Shown here piece after piece: positions 16,104 through 23,676 of a DNA stretch of 35,052 nt. The notes below the pieces were generated by a model, which did no database searches, had not been told where the DNA came from, and was given only the letters and a program-made list of their open reading frames with translations. Origin of the DNA: a virus; the IMG/VR virus record IMGVR_UViG_3300026292_000015, positions 1 to 35,052 of that record; one strand, 5' to 3'. Position 1 is the stretch's first letter, and every line of letters starts with the position of its first letter. Position numbers and translations under genes: made by a program.

Positions 16104-16570
16104 GCCTATTTGAAGACATAAAAGACTTAGCAGGAGGTAAATCTCAGAATCCATCTTGGTGGAGGAGCCAATTTCAGTACGGATTGGAGGGAATGACACC
16201 ATCTGCAGAACCTGGTTCTATTGGAAGGATGCTTTTCTTCACATATAGAGCAGAATATGGTGAGAAGTATAGGTTTTGGGATGTATATCCCTTGGTTTAT
16301 ATCTTAGGAGAAGACTCTACTCACTTCTGGGGTGGTAACTTACATTATGTTGAACCAGAGTACCGAACAATCGTTGGTGCAGACTTAGCTTCTGGTAATA
16401 AGATAGTACCCAACGAAACCTTGCATAAATACTTGAGAAAGAATGTTTTATCCGCTACTTATGACGTACCTAGTACTGAGTGGCCTGACGTGGGGTTGAT
16501 CCCCTGTGAACAGTTTGTTACTACTATTAATGGTAGGAATATACCAATTCCATCGAAACACGTTTACTAA
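16100..16570 (+). CDS. Conserved-type tail block protein, 156 aa, unknown
   Basis: The product starts MSLFEDIKDLAGG and is a soluble, aromatic-rich protein (FFTYRAEYGEKYRFWDVYPLVYIL, given in parts as YRAEYGEKYRFWDVYPLV). It lacks membrane segments and known catalytic motifs. The setting between gene 4 and a tube-like baseplate gene, with overlaps on both sides (ATGA and TAATG), marks it as part of the late morphogenesis operon, so a virion or assembly role is likely. No family is recognised by reading. Confidence 0.65.
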   Translation: MSLFEDIKDLAGGKSQNPSWWRSQFQYGLEGMTPSAEPGSIGRMLFFTYRAEYGEKYRFWDVYPLVYILGEDSTHFWGGNLHYVEPEYRTIVGADLASGNKIVPNETLHKYLRKNVLSATYDVPSTEWPDVGLIPCEQFVTTINGRNIPIPSKHVY

Positions 16571-17370
16571 TGGGAATTTCGTTTACAAGATTTAAAGATA
16601 CCGTTGCGACAGGAGCGTTTGAGCCAGCACGCTCAAATATGTACACGGTGATGATATCTATACCACCGTTTCTAGTCTATGATCTGAATGAATTTGGAGG
16701 AGCAAGTGATTATTATGAGGCTATAGACTTCTTTGCTGATCAGGTTACGGTACCATCAAGGAATATGATGTCTGGTGAAGTAACAAACTTTGGATCGATG
16801 AGGAGATATGCTACACAACAGACACCTACAGATTTAAATGTACAGTTTATAATAACAAAGAACCAATGGCATAGAAACTTCTTTGAAAGATGGATGAATG
16901 GTATTAGTAGAGATACTGAAAATAGAAGTATGTTCTATGATAAGTACACTTCAGATATTCTTATCAATAAGTATGAACCTGGATCTAACCTTGTAACAAG
17001 ATTTGTCGATGGTAATAAGAGAGTAGGACAGATAAGAGATAATAAGATAACAGCACAGTGGAGAGCAGTTGGTTGCTTCCCTTACAATGTTAGTACTATA
17101 CAGATGTCTAACGAACATACATCTTTAATGAAATTAGATGTACAGTTCTACCTAGAGAGATTCCGTCTTGGTACTACTGTCAAATCAGTTGCTGATTGGA
17201 CTACTGATGAGGTGACTGTCAGAAGTGCACGTAGTGTTGTTAATCGTCGTAATGCGAACGAGAACGTGGATACTTTAGATAGAGTCATTGATGCAGCTAC
17301 TGATATTGGTAATATCATTGGTAATAGGTCAATCAAGAAGTATACTTCCGATTGGAGCAGGTTGCTTTAG
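16570..17370 (+). CDS. 54: Baseplate tail-tube initiator (gp54-like / tube fold)
   Basis: Residues 50-110 match the tail-tube fold shared by gp19, gp48 and gp54: FADQVTVPSRNMMSGEVTNF, then QTPTDLNVQFIITKN and FFERWMNGIS, the pattern of loops and strands in tube subunits. The C-terminal half continues with FYLERFRLGTT and an Arg/Asn-rich helical tail. At 266 residues it is longer than a simple tube protein (163 in T4) and nearer to gp54 (320), the tube initiator. Its position near gp48, gp53 and gp26 supports gp54, but gp19-like cannot be excluded. It shares TAATG with the gene before. Confidence 0.7.
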   Translation: MGISFTRFKDTVATGAFEPARSNMYTVMISIPPFLVYDLNEFGGASDYYEAIDFFADQVTVPSRNMMSGEVTNFGSMRRYATQQTPTDLNVQFIITKNQWHRNFFERWMNGISRDTENRSMFYDKYTSDILINKYEPGSNLVTRFVDGNKRVGQIRDNKITAQWRAVGCFPYNVSTIQMSNEHTSLMKLDVQFYLERFRLGTTVKSVADWTTDEVTVRSARSVVNRRNANENVDTLDRVIDAATDIGNIIGNRSIKKYTSDWSRLL

Positions 17371-17402: not shown

Positions 17403-18074
17403 ATGGTCCGTGAAAAGATTGCTGATTTAATCAGGAATGCAGCTTTATCATTTGATGGAGTTGAACCTTTAGAATGTGACTGTAAGTGGATTGATTTTGA
17501 AGCAGGATGGATTAAAAATGAAATGTGGAAAGCACCAGGTTTCAGGAAGATCCATTTAGAAACTTCAGAAGTCAAGGGACTCGATGTACTGCATTGTGTC
17601 TTCTTTCCTGACTATAACTACAATATACCTATCTTCGGGTGTGATATTGTTGCTACTAAGACTGTGATAACTGCTGCTATTGTAGATATTTCTCCTGTTA
17701 GAGGGAGTGAAAAGATCTATGAGCAGATAGCACCTATTAGTAACGCATATATTTTCAAAGAAAAACGAGTTTTACCTTTGTGGGGTGATGATATTTTCTC
17801 ACCTCATTTTAAATTTGTTAGGATACGAGATGAAGAAGAGGTAGGTGAGTATATAAGGATACTGGAGGGTTACTTAAACACACTATGTGATTGGGTCAAA
17901 TCTGTTGAAAAAGAAGATAACTATGTTGATGCGATGCTGAGAATGGATGATCAGGTATGGTACTCTACTCAGCAAAGAAAGAACAAGAAAACAATAGCAG
18001 CACTGTCTAGTTGGTTTGACAAGGAGTGGGCTATAGATTACATACACAATATTCTATTTGACCTACCCAAATGA
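17403..18074 (+). CDS. pcyA: Ferredoxin-dependent bilin reductase, PcyA type
   Basis: PcyA reduces biliverdin IXalpha with ferredoxin electrons to phycocyanobilin. The 223-residue protein shows the central block FRKIHLETSEVKGLDVLHCV and then PIFGCDIVATKTVITAAIVDISP, which closely follow cyanobacterial PcyA. The residues equal to E76, H88 and D105 of the Synechocystis enzyme are all present as E53, H64 and D81, with matching spacing. This argues for an active enzyme and for PcyA over the PebS type. It lacks about 20 N-terminal residues compared with host PcyA. It is a host-derived metabolic gene inserted among tail genes; its stop overlaps the next start by ATGA. The related phage PcyX type, which makes phycoerythrobilin, cannot be fully excluded by eye. 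Confidence 0.92.
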   Translation: MVREKIADLIRNAALSFDGVEPLECDCKWIDFEAGWIKNEMWKAPGFRKIHLETSEVKGLDVLHCVFFPDYNYNIPIFGCDIVATKTVITAAIVDISPVRGSEKIYEQIAPISNAYIFKEKRVLPLWGDDIFSPHFKFVRIRDEEEVGEYIRILEGYLNTLCDWVKSVEKEDNYVDAMLRMDDQVWYSTQQRKNKKTIAALSSWFDKEWAIDYIHNILFDLPK

Positions 18075-18394
18075 ATCCTATATTTGACATAATATTTACT
18101 GCCACGTGGATAATCCTACTCGTTAGTGCTATAAGACTTATGTCACAAGGATGGAATATGGAACCCCCAAAACCCCCTAAGAAGAAATTTCAAGAACACC
18201 CTGAAATGTCAGAAGTTCAGGAGGGTGATGAACTATTAGTTGTAAATTTTACACCTGATCAGGAATTTACCGATAGGGTTAAAGAATCTGACAGCTTTTT
18301 ATCAGAGTCATTAAAAGATAGGATCGATGAATTAAACGATCCTTGGGATGATGATGAAGATGATGACGGTGACATTCTCGTAACACGGAAATGA
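18071..18394 (+). CDS. Membrane-anchored acidic protein, 107 aa
   Basis: One N-terminal transmembrane helix (FDIIFTATWIILLVSAIRLM) is followed by a Pro/Lys-rich linker (MEPPKPPKKKF) and an acidic soluble part that ends in a striking run of Asp and Glu (PWDDDEDDDGD). It overlaps pcyA by ATGA and is therefore probably translated with it. No family is recognised. The acidic tail would face the cytoplasm or lumen depending on orientation. Confidence 0.6.
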   Translation: MNPIFDIIFTATWIILLVSAIRLMSQGWNMEPPKPPKKKFQEHPEMSEVQEGDELLVVNFTPDQEFTDRVKESDSFLSESLKDRIDELNDPWDDDEDDDGDILVTRK

Positions 18395-18426: not shown

Positions 18427-19131
18427 ATGCCATTACCTACCCTGGTTGTACCAGAATATGAGTGCAACCTACCTTCTGGGAAGAAAGTGACCTATAGACC
18501 CTTCTTGGTTCGTGAGGAAAAGCTACTTTACGTAGCAATGGAATCACAAGACCAAAAGGAAATGGTTAAAGCAGTTAAAGAGATCATCAAAAATTGTACT
18601 AGCGTAAAGAATGTAGGTACACTATCTACATTTGACATCGAATTACTTTTCCTTCGTATTCGTGCTAAGTCAGTTGGTGAGATTAGTGAGTTTAAACTTA
18701 CTTGTCCTGATGATGGTAAGACTCAAGTTGATGTTGAAATTAACTTAGAAGAAGTGGAAGTTGTTATACCTCCAGAACATTCTAAGAAGATCAAGATCAC
18801 AGATGAAGTCACTCTTGTTATGAAGTATCCTTCTATTGATACTTTCGTAAAGAATAACTTATCGGAAAATCCTAATATTGATGATGTATTTGACCTTGCT
18901 GCTGATTGTGTAGATCAGATTGCAACAGGTGAGGATGTAGAAGATGCAAAGAACTATAAGAAGACAGAACTAGTCTCGTTCTTTGAAGGTATGAACTCCC
19001 AACAGTTCGCTATGGTACAGAGTTTCTTTGAAACTATGCCTAAGTTAGAACATACCTTAGAAGTCTTTAACCCTAAGACTGAAGTTAAAAGTGAGATTAA
19101 ATTGGAGGGTATGGCGGCTTTTTTCGAATAG
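18427..19131 (+). CDS. 26: Baseplate hub/assembly protein gp26
   Basis: The 234-residue product fits the T4 gp26 baseplate family. It starts with LPTLVVPEYECNLPSGKKVTYRPF, a beta-rich segment followed by REEKLLYVAMES, typical of these proteins; a long charged middle (DGKTQVDVEINLEEVEVVIPP) and helical end follow. T4 gp26 is needed for hub formation. The last codons read ATG GCG GCT TTT TTC GAA TAG and include a T-TTT-TTC heptamer. The -1 frame stays open beyond the stop and joins the small downstream gene, so a longer 297-residue product may also be made. Confidence 0.85.
   Translation: MPLPTLVVPEYECNLPSGKKVTYRPFLVREEKLLYVAMESQDQKEMVKAVKEIIKNCTSVKNVGTLSTFDIELLFLRIRAKSVGEISEFKLTCPDDGKTQVDVEINLEEVEVVIPPEHSKKIKITDEVTLVMKYPSIDTFVKNNLSENPNIDDVFDLAADCVDQIATGEDVEDAKNYKKTELVSFFEGMNSQQFAMVQSFFETMPKLEHTLEVFNPKTEVKSEIKLEGMAAFFE
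19119..19125 (+). other. Candidate -1 frameshift slippery site (gene 26)
   Basis: The heptamer T TTT TTC is read in frame 0 as GCT-TTT-TTC, two codons before the gene 26 stop at 19129-19131. A shift of -1 would continue as CGA ATA GCC CTA GCC CAC GAT TCT CTA ATG, with no stop, directly into the frame of the gene at 19152. This matches the X XXY YYZ rule exactly. No downstream pseudoknot was established by eye. Confidence 0.6.
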
Positions 19132-19151
19132 CCCTAGCCCACGATTCTCTA

Positions 19152-19319
19152 ATGAATCTGTTTGAAGTGAATTTTGCAATGATGCAATATCACAAATATA
19201 GTTTGACAGAGTTAGAGAATATGATTCCGTGGGAAAGGGATGTATACGTGAATCTGCTAATTCGTTATCTGAAGGAAGAAGAAGCCAAACAAGCGGCATC
19301 TAATCGTACCTCGATTTAA
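19152..19319 (+). CDS. Small assembly chaperone-like protein, 55 aa (gene 51 position)
   Basis: A 55-codon frame runs from ATG at 19152 to TAA at 19317-19319. The product begins MNLFEVNFAMMQYHKYSLTE and continues with LENMIPWERDVYVNLLIRYL and a Lys/Glu-rich end; it is amphipathic and helical. The place just after gene 26 and the ERDVYV-type segment recall the small baseplate assembly proteins encoded beside gp26 (gene 51 in T4), though T4 gp51 is much longer. The same frame is open upstream to the slippery site in gene 26, so the protein may be made both alone and as a C-terminal extension of gp26. Its stop shares TAATGG with the next gene. Confidence 0.7.
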   Translation: MNLFEVNFAMMQYHKYSLTELENMIPWERDVYVNLLIRYLKEEEAKQAASNRTSI

Positions 19320-21631
19320 TGGCACCACAAGTAAAAAAAGTTAAAGTAAGATCCTTCCTTGCTGTAAAAGATAAGGGTGGTACCGCTGGTGCTGGAAATG
19401 ATCCTATTAAGTCAATGACATTGGCATTTAATAGGATGGGTAATACGGTAGAGGATATTGGTAGGATAATAACTGATAGTTTAGAAGCAAAGGCACAGGC
19501 TGCAAGAGATGCAGCAGAAGCAAGTAGGTTACAATTAGTCAAAAAACAAGAGAATGACTACGAACAGAAGTTACTTGCTGATCCTAAGGATGTTAAAGAT
19601 GGTGTAGAGAAAGATAAACCAAAAGTAGATAAAGGTAAGTGGTCTTGGTTACAGAAGTTACTATCACCATTTACAAAGTTATTAAAGTTTGCTGCTACTT
19701 GGTTTGTCCTAGACTTTCTATCAAATCCTAAGAATAAGAAGATTATATCTGTAGGTTTTACAGTAATTGGTGGTTGGTTCAAGATATTATCTAAGGTAGT
19801 ACTGAAGAGCGTAGACTTTATACTGTCTGCATTTGGTGAGAAGAACCCTGTTATAGGTGCACTAAAATTAGTTGGTGGTATTGCTGGATTATTCTTAGCA
19901 GATCGTATCTTAAAGCCTTGGAAACTATTTGGTGATGCTAATAGGTTGCGTAAGTTTATACAAGGACAGATGAGGAGAGGTCTGGATCCTAAGAAACTTG
20001 CTGCACGACAGAGATTAGGTAAGTGGAAAAATATACGCAGAATGCGAAGGTTGAGATCCTTCGGTGGAAATATGGCACGGAGAGGTGGTGGACTTTTACG
20101 TGGTGGTGGAAAAGTATTAGCAGGTGGTGGTTTATCTGTAGCAATGGGTGTTGGTGCAGCATTCCGTCGTAAAGATGAAGGTGCATCAGTAGCAATAGGT
20201 GCTGGAGCAGGTGCAGTGATGGGTGGACTTGCTATGTCTGCACTGTTAACACCTATACTAGGTCCATTTGGTCCTATTGTAGGACAGTTTATAGGTAGTT
20301 TCTTAGGTGAACATATAGGTGCATTCATTGGTGATGCAATCAAACCTCTGTTTGAACCTATTAAGAGAGTATTTGGTGAGATATTGATGCCAGTACTTAA
20401 GTCATATTATGAAGGTCCTATGAAGGCATTCTCAGAATTCTGGCAGAGTCTGATACCAGCACTCGAAAAGGTATGGGACTTCTTAAAACCATTTGCTGAT
20501 GCTGCAATCGATAAGATCCAGCTTTGGTTGCAAAATCCTGCTATCAAGAATGCTGTAGCAAGATTGAAACGTTTTGTCGGGGCTGCAGGGGATCTGGTAG
20601 GTGGTGTACAATCTACTGCAGGTAAAGTAGCGAATGTATTTGGTTTAGAATCTGAGTTAGATACTGCTCAAAGAGAATTGGGAGATGAACAGAGAACTGT
20701 AAGACAGAAAGAGCGTGCTATTGAAGCTGCCAGAGAGAAGTTAGCTTGGTTACAAAAATTAGCAGCAGAGAAAGGAGGAGATAAGAAGGAACATTTCAGT
20801 CATAGGTACACTCTTAATGAAAGGATAGCTGAAGAGCTAGCATATATTCAGAGATTAACTGATGCTAGAGCTGATGCTGTCACTAGAGTACAGAATGAAC
20901 AGGAAGAATTGAATGCTCTCGAAGCACATCAAGCTGAGTCTGCAAGAATGATGGAAGCAGCACCTACTGGTCATAGTACTGGTAGTAAGATATTCCCTTT
21001 AAAGAATGGTCAGTTTGATGGTGAACCATCCTCTTGGTTTAAGAGTGCACCTGAAGCAGATGGTAAGGGTGATGGTATGGGTGTTGTACTCAAACCTAAA
21101 CCTGATACGAGTTTAACTCAAGCAGTTGTTGCTGCTGTTGGTGGTATTGTATCTGGATGGAATTTTAAGGGTGGTAAGGATAAGAATTCTCAACTCAAGA
21201 TAGAGGCTGAGGGAGATCCAGCGAGACATCATAGGTATCTCCATATGGAGCCTTTGGTTAAGAAGGGTGATAAAGTAAAAGCTGGTCAGATGATCGGTAG
21301 GTTAGTTGATCAAGGAGCAGATACTAGATTAAACTTCTCTGTATGGAAACCAAACTGGTCTTGGCCAGAGAATCCACATAAGGAATTACCTAAATTATTT
21401 GGTACTCCTATGGCTTCAGAGAATACTATTATTCCTCCTGAAATAAATAGTGCAGATACCGTAGCTGCAACTACCTCGGACGTTAATAGTACTAACCCTT
21501 CTAATACTGAAATTAAGACAGAAGGTAACACTGTTATTGTACAACCAATAGCTAGACGTACTACGGGTGGCGGCGGGGACAGCGGTTCAACAGTCGTTGG
21601 AGCATCAGCGGAGACAAGCATTAGAGGCTAA
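19319..21631 (+). CDS. Tape-measure-like tail protein with degenerate M23 domain, 770 aa
   Basis: The N-terminal third has helices and a basic region. A Gly/Ala-rich hydrophobic segment follows (GAGAGAVMGGLAMSALL at about residue 300), then long coiled-coil stretches around 450-540, as in tail tape-measure or hub-core proteins. Residues 560-690 resemble an M23/LytM peptidase: RYLHMEPLVKKGDKVKAGQ with H642, then IGRLV. The zinc and catalytic HxH (usually HLHF) is replaced by RLNF at 670-673, and no upstream HxGxD is seen, so the domain is probably inactive. The neighbour at 21631 is a paralogue. The exact T4 counterpart (gp28/gp29 region) is not certain. Confidence 0.7.
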   Translation: MAPQVKKVKVRSFLAVKDKGGTAGAGNDPIKSMTLAFNRMGNTVEDIGRIITDSLEAKAQAARDAAEASRLQLVKKQENDYEQKLLADPKDVKDGVEKDKPKVDKGKWSWLQKLLSPFTKLLKFAATWFVLDFLSNPKNKKIISVGFTVIGGWFKILSKVVLKSVDFILSAFGEKNPVIGALKLVGGIAGLFLADRILKPWKLFGDANRLRKFIQGQMRRGLDPKKLAARQRLGKWKNIRRMRRLRSFGGNMARRGGGLLRGGGKVLAGGGLSVAMGVGAAFRRKDEGASVAIGAGAGAVMGGLAMSALLTPILGPFGPIVGQFIGSFLGEHIGAFIGDAIKPLFEPIKRVFGEILMPVLKSYYEGPMKAFSEFWQSLIPALEKVWDFLKPFADAAIDKIQLWLQNPAIKNAVARLKRFVGAAGDLVGGVQSTAGKVANVFGLESELDTAQRELGDEQRTVRQKERAIEAAREKLAWLQKLAAEKGGDKKEHFSHRYTLNERIAEELAYIQRLTDARADAVTRVQNEQEELNALEAHQAESARMMEAAPTGHSTGSKIFPLKNGQFDGEPSSWFKSAPEADGKGDGMGVVLKPKPDTSLTQAVVAAVGGIVSGWNFKGGKDKNSQLKIEAEGDPARHHRYLHMEPLVKKGDKVKAGQMIGRLVDQGADTRLNFSVWKPNWSWPENPHKELPKLFGTPMASENTIIPPEINSADTVAATTSDVNSTNPSNTEIKTEGNTVIVQPIARRTTGGGGDSGSTVVGASAETSIRG

Positions 21632-23676
21632 TGGCAAGCACATCACCTAAAATTAGATTTTATAAGTTCGTTACAGCACCGAAGAGTAAAGGACTTACAA
21701 TATCCATTGGGAACAAGACAGTAGCAGGATCTGATTTTGGATCTGCTATCAATGCTATTAACTCACTGGGTGCTACTGTTAACAGTATCGGTGTAATGCT
21801 GCAGACTAGTCTTGCATCAGAGAAGGCAGCACAGCAAGAACTGCTAAGAAATCAGCAGTTAATGAGAGACCAAGCCCTTGGTAAGAATCTTAAACAAGGT
21901 GCTCAAGGTGTAGGGAAGAGAGTAGGTGGACTGTTATCTAAAGCTGCACCAACATTCTTAGAGTACCTGGGTAGATTATTAAAATCTCTACTAACATTTG
22001 GTGTATTAGATTGGTTAAGTAAGAAGGAGAATACAGAGAAACTAAAAGTAATGATGGACAGACTTGGTAAGTTTGTCAAGGGTATGGTGGGGTTTATTGG
22101 AAACGTTACCAAGTTTATAGGTGATGCGTGGAATAGTACGTTTGGTGATGGTAAAGATTGGATAGAGAGAATAACTGGTGCACTAAAATTGATAGGTGTG
22201 GGAGGTGCAGCCTTATTAGGCTTATCGTTCCTTAAGAATCCTATAGCAACGGTTAAGAATTTTGCTGGTGTTCTGAAGACAGTCAGTGGTGGTGTTATGA
22301 ACCTAGGTAGATTCCTAGGTGGTAATGCTATAGGTAGAGGAATCCAGGCTGCTACACAAGGTGTGATGGCATATCAGGATGTAATGCAGGATGAGTCTAT
22401 ACCTGAAGAGGATAGAAAAGCTGCTGCTGTAGGTGCTGGAGTTGGTGCTACTGCTGGTGGTATGGCACTGGGTGCTATAGGTAACAGTATTGCTGGACCT
22501 ATTGGAGGTATGATAGGTAATGCTTTAGGTGGTTGGTTAGGTAAGCATCTTGGTAAGTTCTTCGGTCCAGCATTAATGGACTGGGTAGAGAAGTTTACAA
22601 AGTTCTTTGATAAGGTAAAGGAAGCTGTTACTGCATTTATGAAACCAGTGACAGATGCTATAAGAGGTATATTTGAATCACTGGGTCCTGCTATCGATAA
22701 GGTAGTGGATATGATTAAGCCTCATCTGCCTAAGATAATGCAGATAGCCAATTTCATTGGTAAGGTTGTATTTGCACCATTAATAGGATTATTGAAAGGA
22801 TTGAAATGGTTGTTGGATATGTTTGTAGGATCTGATAGTGATAATGTTACAGAAACTAATGTATCTTCTGTCACTCCAAGACATTATGAAGATATGAGTC
22901 AAGAGGATAAAGACAAGTTTGATAATGTTGCGAATAATGCGGGATTCTCTAAAGGTGGTTACGTACGTACTGCACCGATATTTAATATACCTATGAAACC
23001 TATCCCAACCAGAAGTAAGGGTGGATGGATTTCTGGACCACAATCAGGTTACCCCGTATCACTGACGGGTAGAGGTGTTGACTTCATAGGTCACGGTACC
23101 GAGTATGTAGCACAAAGATCTGGTGGTGGTTATGTTGTACCCGTAGATACACCACATACCCGTAAAGATCCAGGATTAACTGCCAGGTCCCTGAAGAGTG
23201 CTATGCTCGCAGGATTTGGTGGACAGTTACCTGGTAGATCTAAGGGTGGTGTAGTAAGAGTCAAGGCACCACAGAGTAAATTGCCTGAGTTTGGATTAGG
23301 TGGTCTATTCTCTGCTGTTGGAGCTCAGGTTGCTAAAGCTGTTGGTGGTGCTCAACCTATCATCAATGCTATAACACCAGTTGCTAACGCTATATTACCT
23401 GGTGCTGGTGCTGCTGCAGGATTGGGTGCTAAGATCATTGCAATGGTTAAGACACTTGAACAGATCACAGCAGAGAGACAGGCAGCAAACATAGAGGGTG
23501 CTGCACAAGCAGTTGTACTTGATATGATAGAAATGCCTGGTCCTCCTGGAGGTGGTGGAGACGGTGGTGGTACACCTATTGTTATGCCACGTAAACAGAA
23601 TCCAGCAAATAGGTACTTACAGAGTCGCTTTGGATACCTAGGTGAAGGATCCACAATCAGCAGTAACTTCTTCTAA
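21631..23676 (+). CDS. Tape-measure-like tail protein, 681 aa
   Basis: The protein resembles its upstream neighbour: LLTFGVLDWLSKKENTEKLK parallels FAATWFVLDFLSNPKNKK there, and both carry a Gly/Ala-rich hydrophobic stretch (here GAGVGATAGGMALGAIGN). The C-terminal part contains repeated KGG motifs: SKGGYV, SKGGWISGPQSGYPVSLTGR, HGTEYVAQRSGGGYVVPV and SKGGVV, the pattern seen at the ends of tail tape-measure proteins. It would run through the tail tube or hub. Junctions on both sides are TAATGG. It carries no visible peptidase domain. Length is close to that of T4 gp29 (590). Confidence 0.7.
   Translation: MASTSPKIRFYKFVTAPKSKGLTISIGNKTVAGSDFGSAINAINSLGATVNSIGVMLQTSLASEKAAQQELLRNQQLMRDQALGKNLKQGAQGVGKRVGGLLSKAAPTFLEYLGRLLKSLLTFGVLDWLSKKENTEKLKVMMDRLGKFVKGMVGFIGNVTKFIGDAWNSTFGDGKDWIERITGALKLIGVGGAALLGLSFLKNPIATVKNFAGVLKTVSGGVMNLGRFLGGNAIGRGIQAATQGVMAYQDVMQDESIPEEDRKAAAVGAGVGATAGGMALGAIGNSIAGPIGGMIGNALGGWLGKHLGKFFGPALMDWVEKFTKFFDKVKEAVTAFMKPVTDAIRGIFESLGPAIDKVVDMIKPHLPKIMQIANFIGKVVFAPLIGLLKGLKWLLDMFVGSDSDNVTETNVSSVTPRHYEDMSQEDKDKFDNVANNAGFSKGGYVRTAPIFNIPMKPIPTRSKGGWISGPQSGYPVSLTGRGVDFIGHGTEYVAQRSGGGYVVPVDTPHTRKDPGLTARSLKSAMLAGFGGQLPGRSKGGVVRVKAPQSKLPEFGLGGLFSAVGAQVAKAVGGAQPIINAITPVANAILPGAGAAAGLGAKIIAMVKTLEQITAERQAANIEGAAQAVVLDMIEMPGPPGGGGDGGGTPIVMPRKQNPANRYLQSRFGYLGEGSTISSNFF

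Follow-up and report, generated by a model that had tools for sequence, protein, structure and literature searches.

Genes 26 and 51 of a marine T4-like virus are very probably one recoded gene, from which -1 ribosomal slippage would yield a short and a long tail assembly chaperone. The window, the whole 35,052-base IMG/VR virus record that was analyzed, carries a slippery heptamer in the correct phase, a conserved coding -1 extension, a Shine-Dalgarno-like (SD-like) element upstream, the gene order of a chaperone locus, and homology of the joined product to T4 gp51. Coordinates are reported in Table 1.

Table 1. Features of the gene 26/51 locus and its tail gene neighbors in the window
Feature	Position	Strand	Details
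Tail tube protein gene	16570..17370	+	Upstream of gene 26; phrog_45 tail tube, E 2.9e-40
Gene 26 zero-frame ORF, short form (TAC-N, lambda G counterpart)	18427..19131	+	234 aa; Pfam T4_baseplate PF12322, E 6e-67; PHROG phrog_150, E 2e-73
GGAGGG, internal Shine-Dalgarno-like candidate stimulator	19104..19109	+	9 nt upstream of the heptamer
Slippery heptamer T TTT TTC	19119..19125	+	tRNA-Phe in P and A sites would re-pair on TTT TTT; 151 of 152 distinct relatives have an in-phase T TTT TTN
-1 frame extension (lambda T counterpart; corresponds to T4 gp51 C-terminus)	19119..19319	+	66 codons counted from the heptamer, adding 64 residues and ending at TAA (19317-19319)
Gene 26 zero-frame stop TAG	19129..19131	+	One codon after the heptamer; 0-2 codons after it in all relatives with the heptamer
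ORF of 55 codons, commonly given its own annotation as a "baseplate hub assembly catalyst"	19152..19319	+	Matches its families less strongly than the whole extension does
Tape-measure-like gene	19319..21631	+	phrog_167 tail length tape measure protein, E 2e-12; Peptidase_M23 domain, E 1e-7
Second tape-measure-like gene	21631..23676	+	phrog_167, E 4e-9; other long tail/endolysin families

Homology to the T4 gp26 family (PF12322) spans the whole gene 26 protein. In the zero frame the gene ends GAG GGT ATG GCG GCT TTT TTC GAA TAG, and GAA is the sole sense codon separating the heptamer from the stop. The -1 frame reads TTT TTT CGA ATA GCC CTA GCC CAC GAT TCT CTA ATG AAT ... from the heptamer, stays open to the TAA, and is translated as FFRIALAHDSLMNLFEVNFAMMQYHKYSLTELENMIPWERDVYVNLLIRYLKEEEAKQAASNRTSI. 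This is the G/GT-type layout of a short ORF with an overlapping -1 ORF as its C-terminal extension. A first-pass annotation, made from the letters alone, had placed T TTT TTC in the correct phase at the end of gene 26, a stop-free -1 frame into the 55-codon gene, and a shifted product of 297 residues. The coordinates and phase were re-read in the sequence and the length was recomputed (233 + 64 residues), with the same results. The predicted gp26-51 fusion would contain the junction-spanning peptide ...AAFFRIALAHDSL..., and on the frameshift reading the 55-codon ORF would be only part of the extension.

Relatives were drawn from IMG/VR plus named isolates (S-CRM01, S-B68, MED4-213, phiN3, DLP6, YB07, IC12, XG4, Melnitz-1, and Ah1). 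The divergent set consists of 41 clusters at ≤70% amino-acid identity, which are not fully independent. An in-phase T TTT TTN is found at the junction in all 41 clusters and in 151 of 152 distinct junctions (last base C in 105, T in 24, A in 21, and G in 1); Vibrio phage K361 is the sole exception. At every distinct junction bearing the heptamer, the -1 extension has no stop before a gp51-like end or the edge of the contig. All 145 complete extensions fall within 57-70 codons, and the remaining 6 run off contig ends. The first-pass annotation had held that a genuine frameshift would keep heptamer, phase, and open extension across relatives, and that stops before the small gene would speak against it. 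All three are kept across the canonical lineage, with no stop between the heptamer and the gp51-like core. Joined annotation of genes 26 and 51 was not found in the relatives' fetched records.

Elsewhere in gp26 of the 41 divergent clusters, in-phase TTTTTTN occurs at only 3 of 7,667 other codon positions. The codon preceding the first Phe ends in T in every cluster (AGT, GAT, TCT, GCT, AAT, CGT, or ACT), and the first Phe codon is always TTT, compared with 34% TTC among gp26 Phe codons. Given gp26 codon usage and assuming independent clusters, NNT TTT in 41 of 41 has a log10 P of -17.7. Excess synonymous constraint is strong only at the two heptamer codons (-1 and 0; z 7.2 and 9.0), and z is about -1.4 to 2.3 over the 29 codons upstream. 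In some clusters TTA or TTG follows the first Phe codon, which alters the amino acid and preserves the six T. Conservation of the heptamer appears to go beyond that of a Phe-Phe pair.

The -1 extension appears to code ahead of any start codon. Over codons 3-11 after the heptamer, heterozygosity at -1 frame codon positions 1, 2, and 3 is 0.52, 0.34, and 0.59, consistent with a coding signature that starts right after the heptamer. Within the first 12 extension codons, ATG is absent in 20 of 41 clusters, and ATG, GTG, and TTG are all absent in 14. The window itself has an ATG at 19152, a possible start of a separate protein. Read from the heptamer, the window extension matches phrog_634 at E 7e-28 (1e-23 for the 55-aa ORF alone). 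From its very first residue, it matches phrog_150 positions 231-280 at E 1e-5 (2e-3 for the ORF alone).

Candidate stimulatory elements flank the heptamer. The Glu codon in the SD-like element is GAG in 23 of the 31 clusters with Glu there, compared with 30% of gp26 Glu codons (p 3.7e-7). Scored with the general bacterial anti-SD sequence, the best duplex in the 24 nt upstream of the heptamer averages -7.4 kcal/mol, compared with -2.2 kcal/mol elsewhere in gp26 (p 2e-23); some divergent relatives have only a weak element or none. RNA folding peaks only 0-5 nt 3′ of the heptamer, where mean z is -1.9 and 41% of clusters fall below -2; mean z elsewhere in the region is about -0.7 to 0.2. A long stem at about +5, up to 11-12 bp, is common to 7 of 41 clusters, which form one group of relatives. 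Downstream structure in the window is weak (z -1.5, only a small hairpin), and single-strand folding found no pseudoknot or strong hairpin downstream of its heptamer. The first-pass annotation had suggested pseudoknot prediction after the heptamer; no pseudoknot is evident in the window, and a stem-loop is supported across the wider set only. Because downstream structure is weak there, the SD-like element is the likelier stimulator in the window. An Rfam search returned nothing above threshold.

A recoding review describes dnaX and many IS elements as having Shine-Dalgarno stimulators upstream of the shift site (PMC5009743). The locus resembles the Escherichia coli dnaX cassette in its slippery heptamer and upstream Shine-Dalgarno stimulator, which in dnaX lies about 10 nt upstream and here is GGAGGG with a 9-nt spacer. 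Part of the lineage also shares a stem-loop starting about 5 nt downstream. Unlike in dnaX, the heptamer encodes Phe rather than Lys, the frameshift product is the longer form, and the stem-loop of the window is weak.

T4 itself has separate genes 26 and 51, as the first-pass annotation stated, and they lie on opposite strands. Residues 13-203 of T4-type gp51 align with almost all of gp26, right up to its C-terminus (hhalign probability 98.9%), and in PHROGs T4-type gp51 (3-248) falls in the gp26 family phrog_150 (E 3e-88). The -1 extension profile matches T4 gp51 200-245 at E 5e-8, a small-database value from a two-sequence search; the homology claim is carried by the profile comparison and the PHROG results. 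T4 gp51 would correspond to the long form, an unbroken gp26-like domain followed by the -1 extension. The window extension is homologous to the gp51 C-terminal domain; in place of one unbroken ORF of ~250 aa, the window has its gp26-like and C-terminal parts in two frames joined at the heptamer. T4 apparently produces this pair of proteins from a gene for each: the protein families are the same, but its two genes lack the heptamer, where the window has one gene, apparently recoded. Phages with a separate gp51 of ~250 aa, T4 among them, provide a natural control in which most lose the T6 run. Their gp26 keeps a Phe-Phe end in several lineages, mostly as TTC TTT, and loses it in others; one phage arranged like T4 (L209) retains TTT TTT.

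In AlphaFold models, the structural elements of gp26 and gp51 follow one another in a similar order, and gp51 has three additional helices at its C-terminus, in the region of the extension. The gp26 model (pLDDT 89.7) had the HK97 tail assembly chaperone gp13 (2ob9) as its most probable PDB fold match, which was not significant (E 1.4, probability 0.38). Searching PDB folds with the model of T4-type gp51 gave nothing significant, nor did a PDB sequence search with the gp26 and extension profiles, where weak coiled-coil matches were chance helices. An NCBIfam search gave no useful match.

Lambda G/GT type tail assembly chaperones, made by programmed -1 frameshifting, were reportedly described by Xu, Hendrix, and Duda in 2004 and are reviewed in PMC5009743. 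The window locus is like lambda G/GT in its short ORF with a -1 extension, in its slippery site just before the short ORF stop, and in its place directly before a tape-measure-like gene and after a tail tube gene. It differs in its T TTT TTC heptamer with an upstream SD-like element and in its N-terminal part, which is of the T4 gp26 family. The first-pass annotation had called the next two genes tape-measure-like and had likened the arrangement ahead of them to G/GT. Both points were borne out, the former by phrog_167 matches and the latter by the order tail tube, 26/51, tape-measure-like, which is the usual G/GT place. The gene order and the makeup of T4 gp51, gp26-like with the same extension, support its further proposal that gp26/gp51 and G/GT are versions of a single system. 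The first tape-measure-like gene starts at 19319 and overlaps the stop of the extension. The chaperone locus of Pseudomonas phage Adele and Vandenendeviridae also has a conserved -1 shift in a myovirus chaperone gene, with a poly-T motif (GTTTTT); it belongs to another phage family and is likened here by locus description (PMC12846349).

A bilin reductase gene and a small ORF lie between the tail tube gene and gene 26. The former (17403-18074) encodes a ferredoxin-dependent bilin reductase (PF05996, E 5e-47) and is an auxiliary metabolic gene inside the tail cluster. The latter (18071-18394, 107 aa), just upstream of gene 26, has a weak match to phrog_275, of unknown function (E 3e-6). The Peptidase_M23 domain in the first tape-measure-like protein suggests cell-wall cleavage at infection.

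The heptamer is also found in some Straboviridae (Cronobacter phage LPCS28, Vibrio phage PC-Liy1 of the KVP40 type, and Aeromonas phages 65.2 and Ah1), in Agrobacterium phage OLIVR6, and in Nitratidesulfovibrio phage SRB7757. Ah1, LPCS28, and 65.2 lack gp51 in their annotation and encode unannotated gp51-like -1 extensions (L085:3229-3408, phrog_634 8e-15; L192 from 2217; and L199 from about 2178, respectively). Aeh1, the same kind of phage as Ah1, was reported to lack gp51 (PMC3037559), and an unannotated extension of the Ah1 type would account for this. Acinetobacter phage Ac42 and Aeromonas phage 50AhydR13PP are arranged like T4. An open, homologous gp51-like -1 extension without the T6 heptamer occurs in Ackermannviridae and Pseudomonas phage Cygsa01, whose gp26 ends [AC]TT TTC/TTT NNN TAA (L195, L196, L197, L087, L200, and L226-L235), as in the Ackermannviridae junction ATT TTC ATT TAA. 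Salmonella SFP10-type phages, which are Ackermannviridae, have no ATG near the junction and no annotated gp51. An extension without the heptamer makes another route possible in these phages, such as a single-codon slip or reinitiation. There is a serious, if slightly less than even, chance that a -1 frameshifted gp26-51 chaperone is ancestral to the T4-like superfamily, with three present solutions. These would be a dnaX-like cassette in cyanophages and in rhizobial, Stenotrophomonas, KVP40-, Aeh1-, and 65-type phages; two separate genes with the slippery site lost in T4 and relatives; and a third way in Ackermannviridae, where the homologous -1 extension is open and the heptamer gone.

In the proposed mechanism, most ribosomes would terminate at 19129 and make gp26 of 234 aa. 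A fraction would shift by -1 at T TTT TTC, with the two tRNA-Phe changing their pairing from TTT TTC to TTT TTT, and would make the 297-aa gp26-51 fusion. Pairing of 16S rRNA with GGAGGG 9 nt upstream would aid this shift. The two products would be the short and long tail assembly chaperones, in the roles of G and GT. Both would bind the tape measure via their shared part, and the helical extension of the long form would recruit the tail tube or an initiator protein. We infer the occurrence and rate of slippage, the chaperone function, and the binding partners from sequence features.

GenBank relatives are annotated as having gp26 and an independently started 55-aa gp51 as separate proteins, in which case the heptamer would be a by-product of a conserved Phe-Phe end. 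The ATG at 19152 suits this account, but the synonymous sites of the heptamer are fixed while their neighbors drift, and several separate-gene phages keep Phe-Phe as TTC TTT. The conserved extension also begins before any ATG in about half of the clusters, and the residues ahead of the ATG are conserved and strengthen the match to the family. We regard separate proteins as very improbable; a separate small gene as the sole product is disfavored by the synonymous constraint and the missing starts. It is unlikely, though less far-fetched, that the fusion is accompanied by independent translation of the small ORF, from 19152 or by reinitiation. An ATG is present there in the window and within the first 12 codons in 21 of 41 clusters, but its position varies between lineages, it is often absent, and the window has CTA where many relatives have ATG.

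Slippage of the polymerase rather than the ribosome could also give the -1 product, and the 9 of 41 clusters whose T runs are 7-8 long would favor it. The run is, however, exactly six T in the other 32, window included, which is short for polymerase slippage and disfavors this route; the conserved SD-like element and the structure downstream are signals to ribosomes. Transcriptional slippage is quite improbable. The frames are separated by a single-base shift, as they would be had a sequencing or assembly indel split one gene, but more than 140 other distinct contigs, and the genomes of named isolates as well, show the same architecture. These rule out an assembly error, and an indel is scarcely conceivable. 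Ribosomal frameshifting within one gene is the reading we prefer.

Vladimirov, Gautam, and Davidson 2022 (Virology 566:9), as quoted in citing papers, identified T4 gp26/gp51 as tail assembly chaperones (via PMC10885494 and PMC12846349). The citing passage in the PRFect paper credits that work with the use of a short gene and a longer fused gene by "some T4-like phages" (PMC10885494), and that in the Adele paper with poly-T shift signals in T4-like phages (PMC12846349). Because these passages cite it so, the core claim may already be in print. New as far as checked are the breadth, the dnaX-like cassette, the T4 control, and gp51 in Aeh1-type phages.

Atkins et al. 2016 describe G-T frameshifting as conserved in long-tailed phages "except T4" (PMC5009743). 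Our comparisons indicate that the wider family of this textbook exception to a near-universal chaperone frameshift has the standard mechanism, and that the two "hub assembly" proteins of T4 are its split short and long forms. The finding would correct the two-gene annotation in hundreds of cyanophage genomes and would give a natural before-and-after set in which a recoding signal is gained, kept, and lost.
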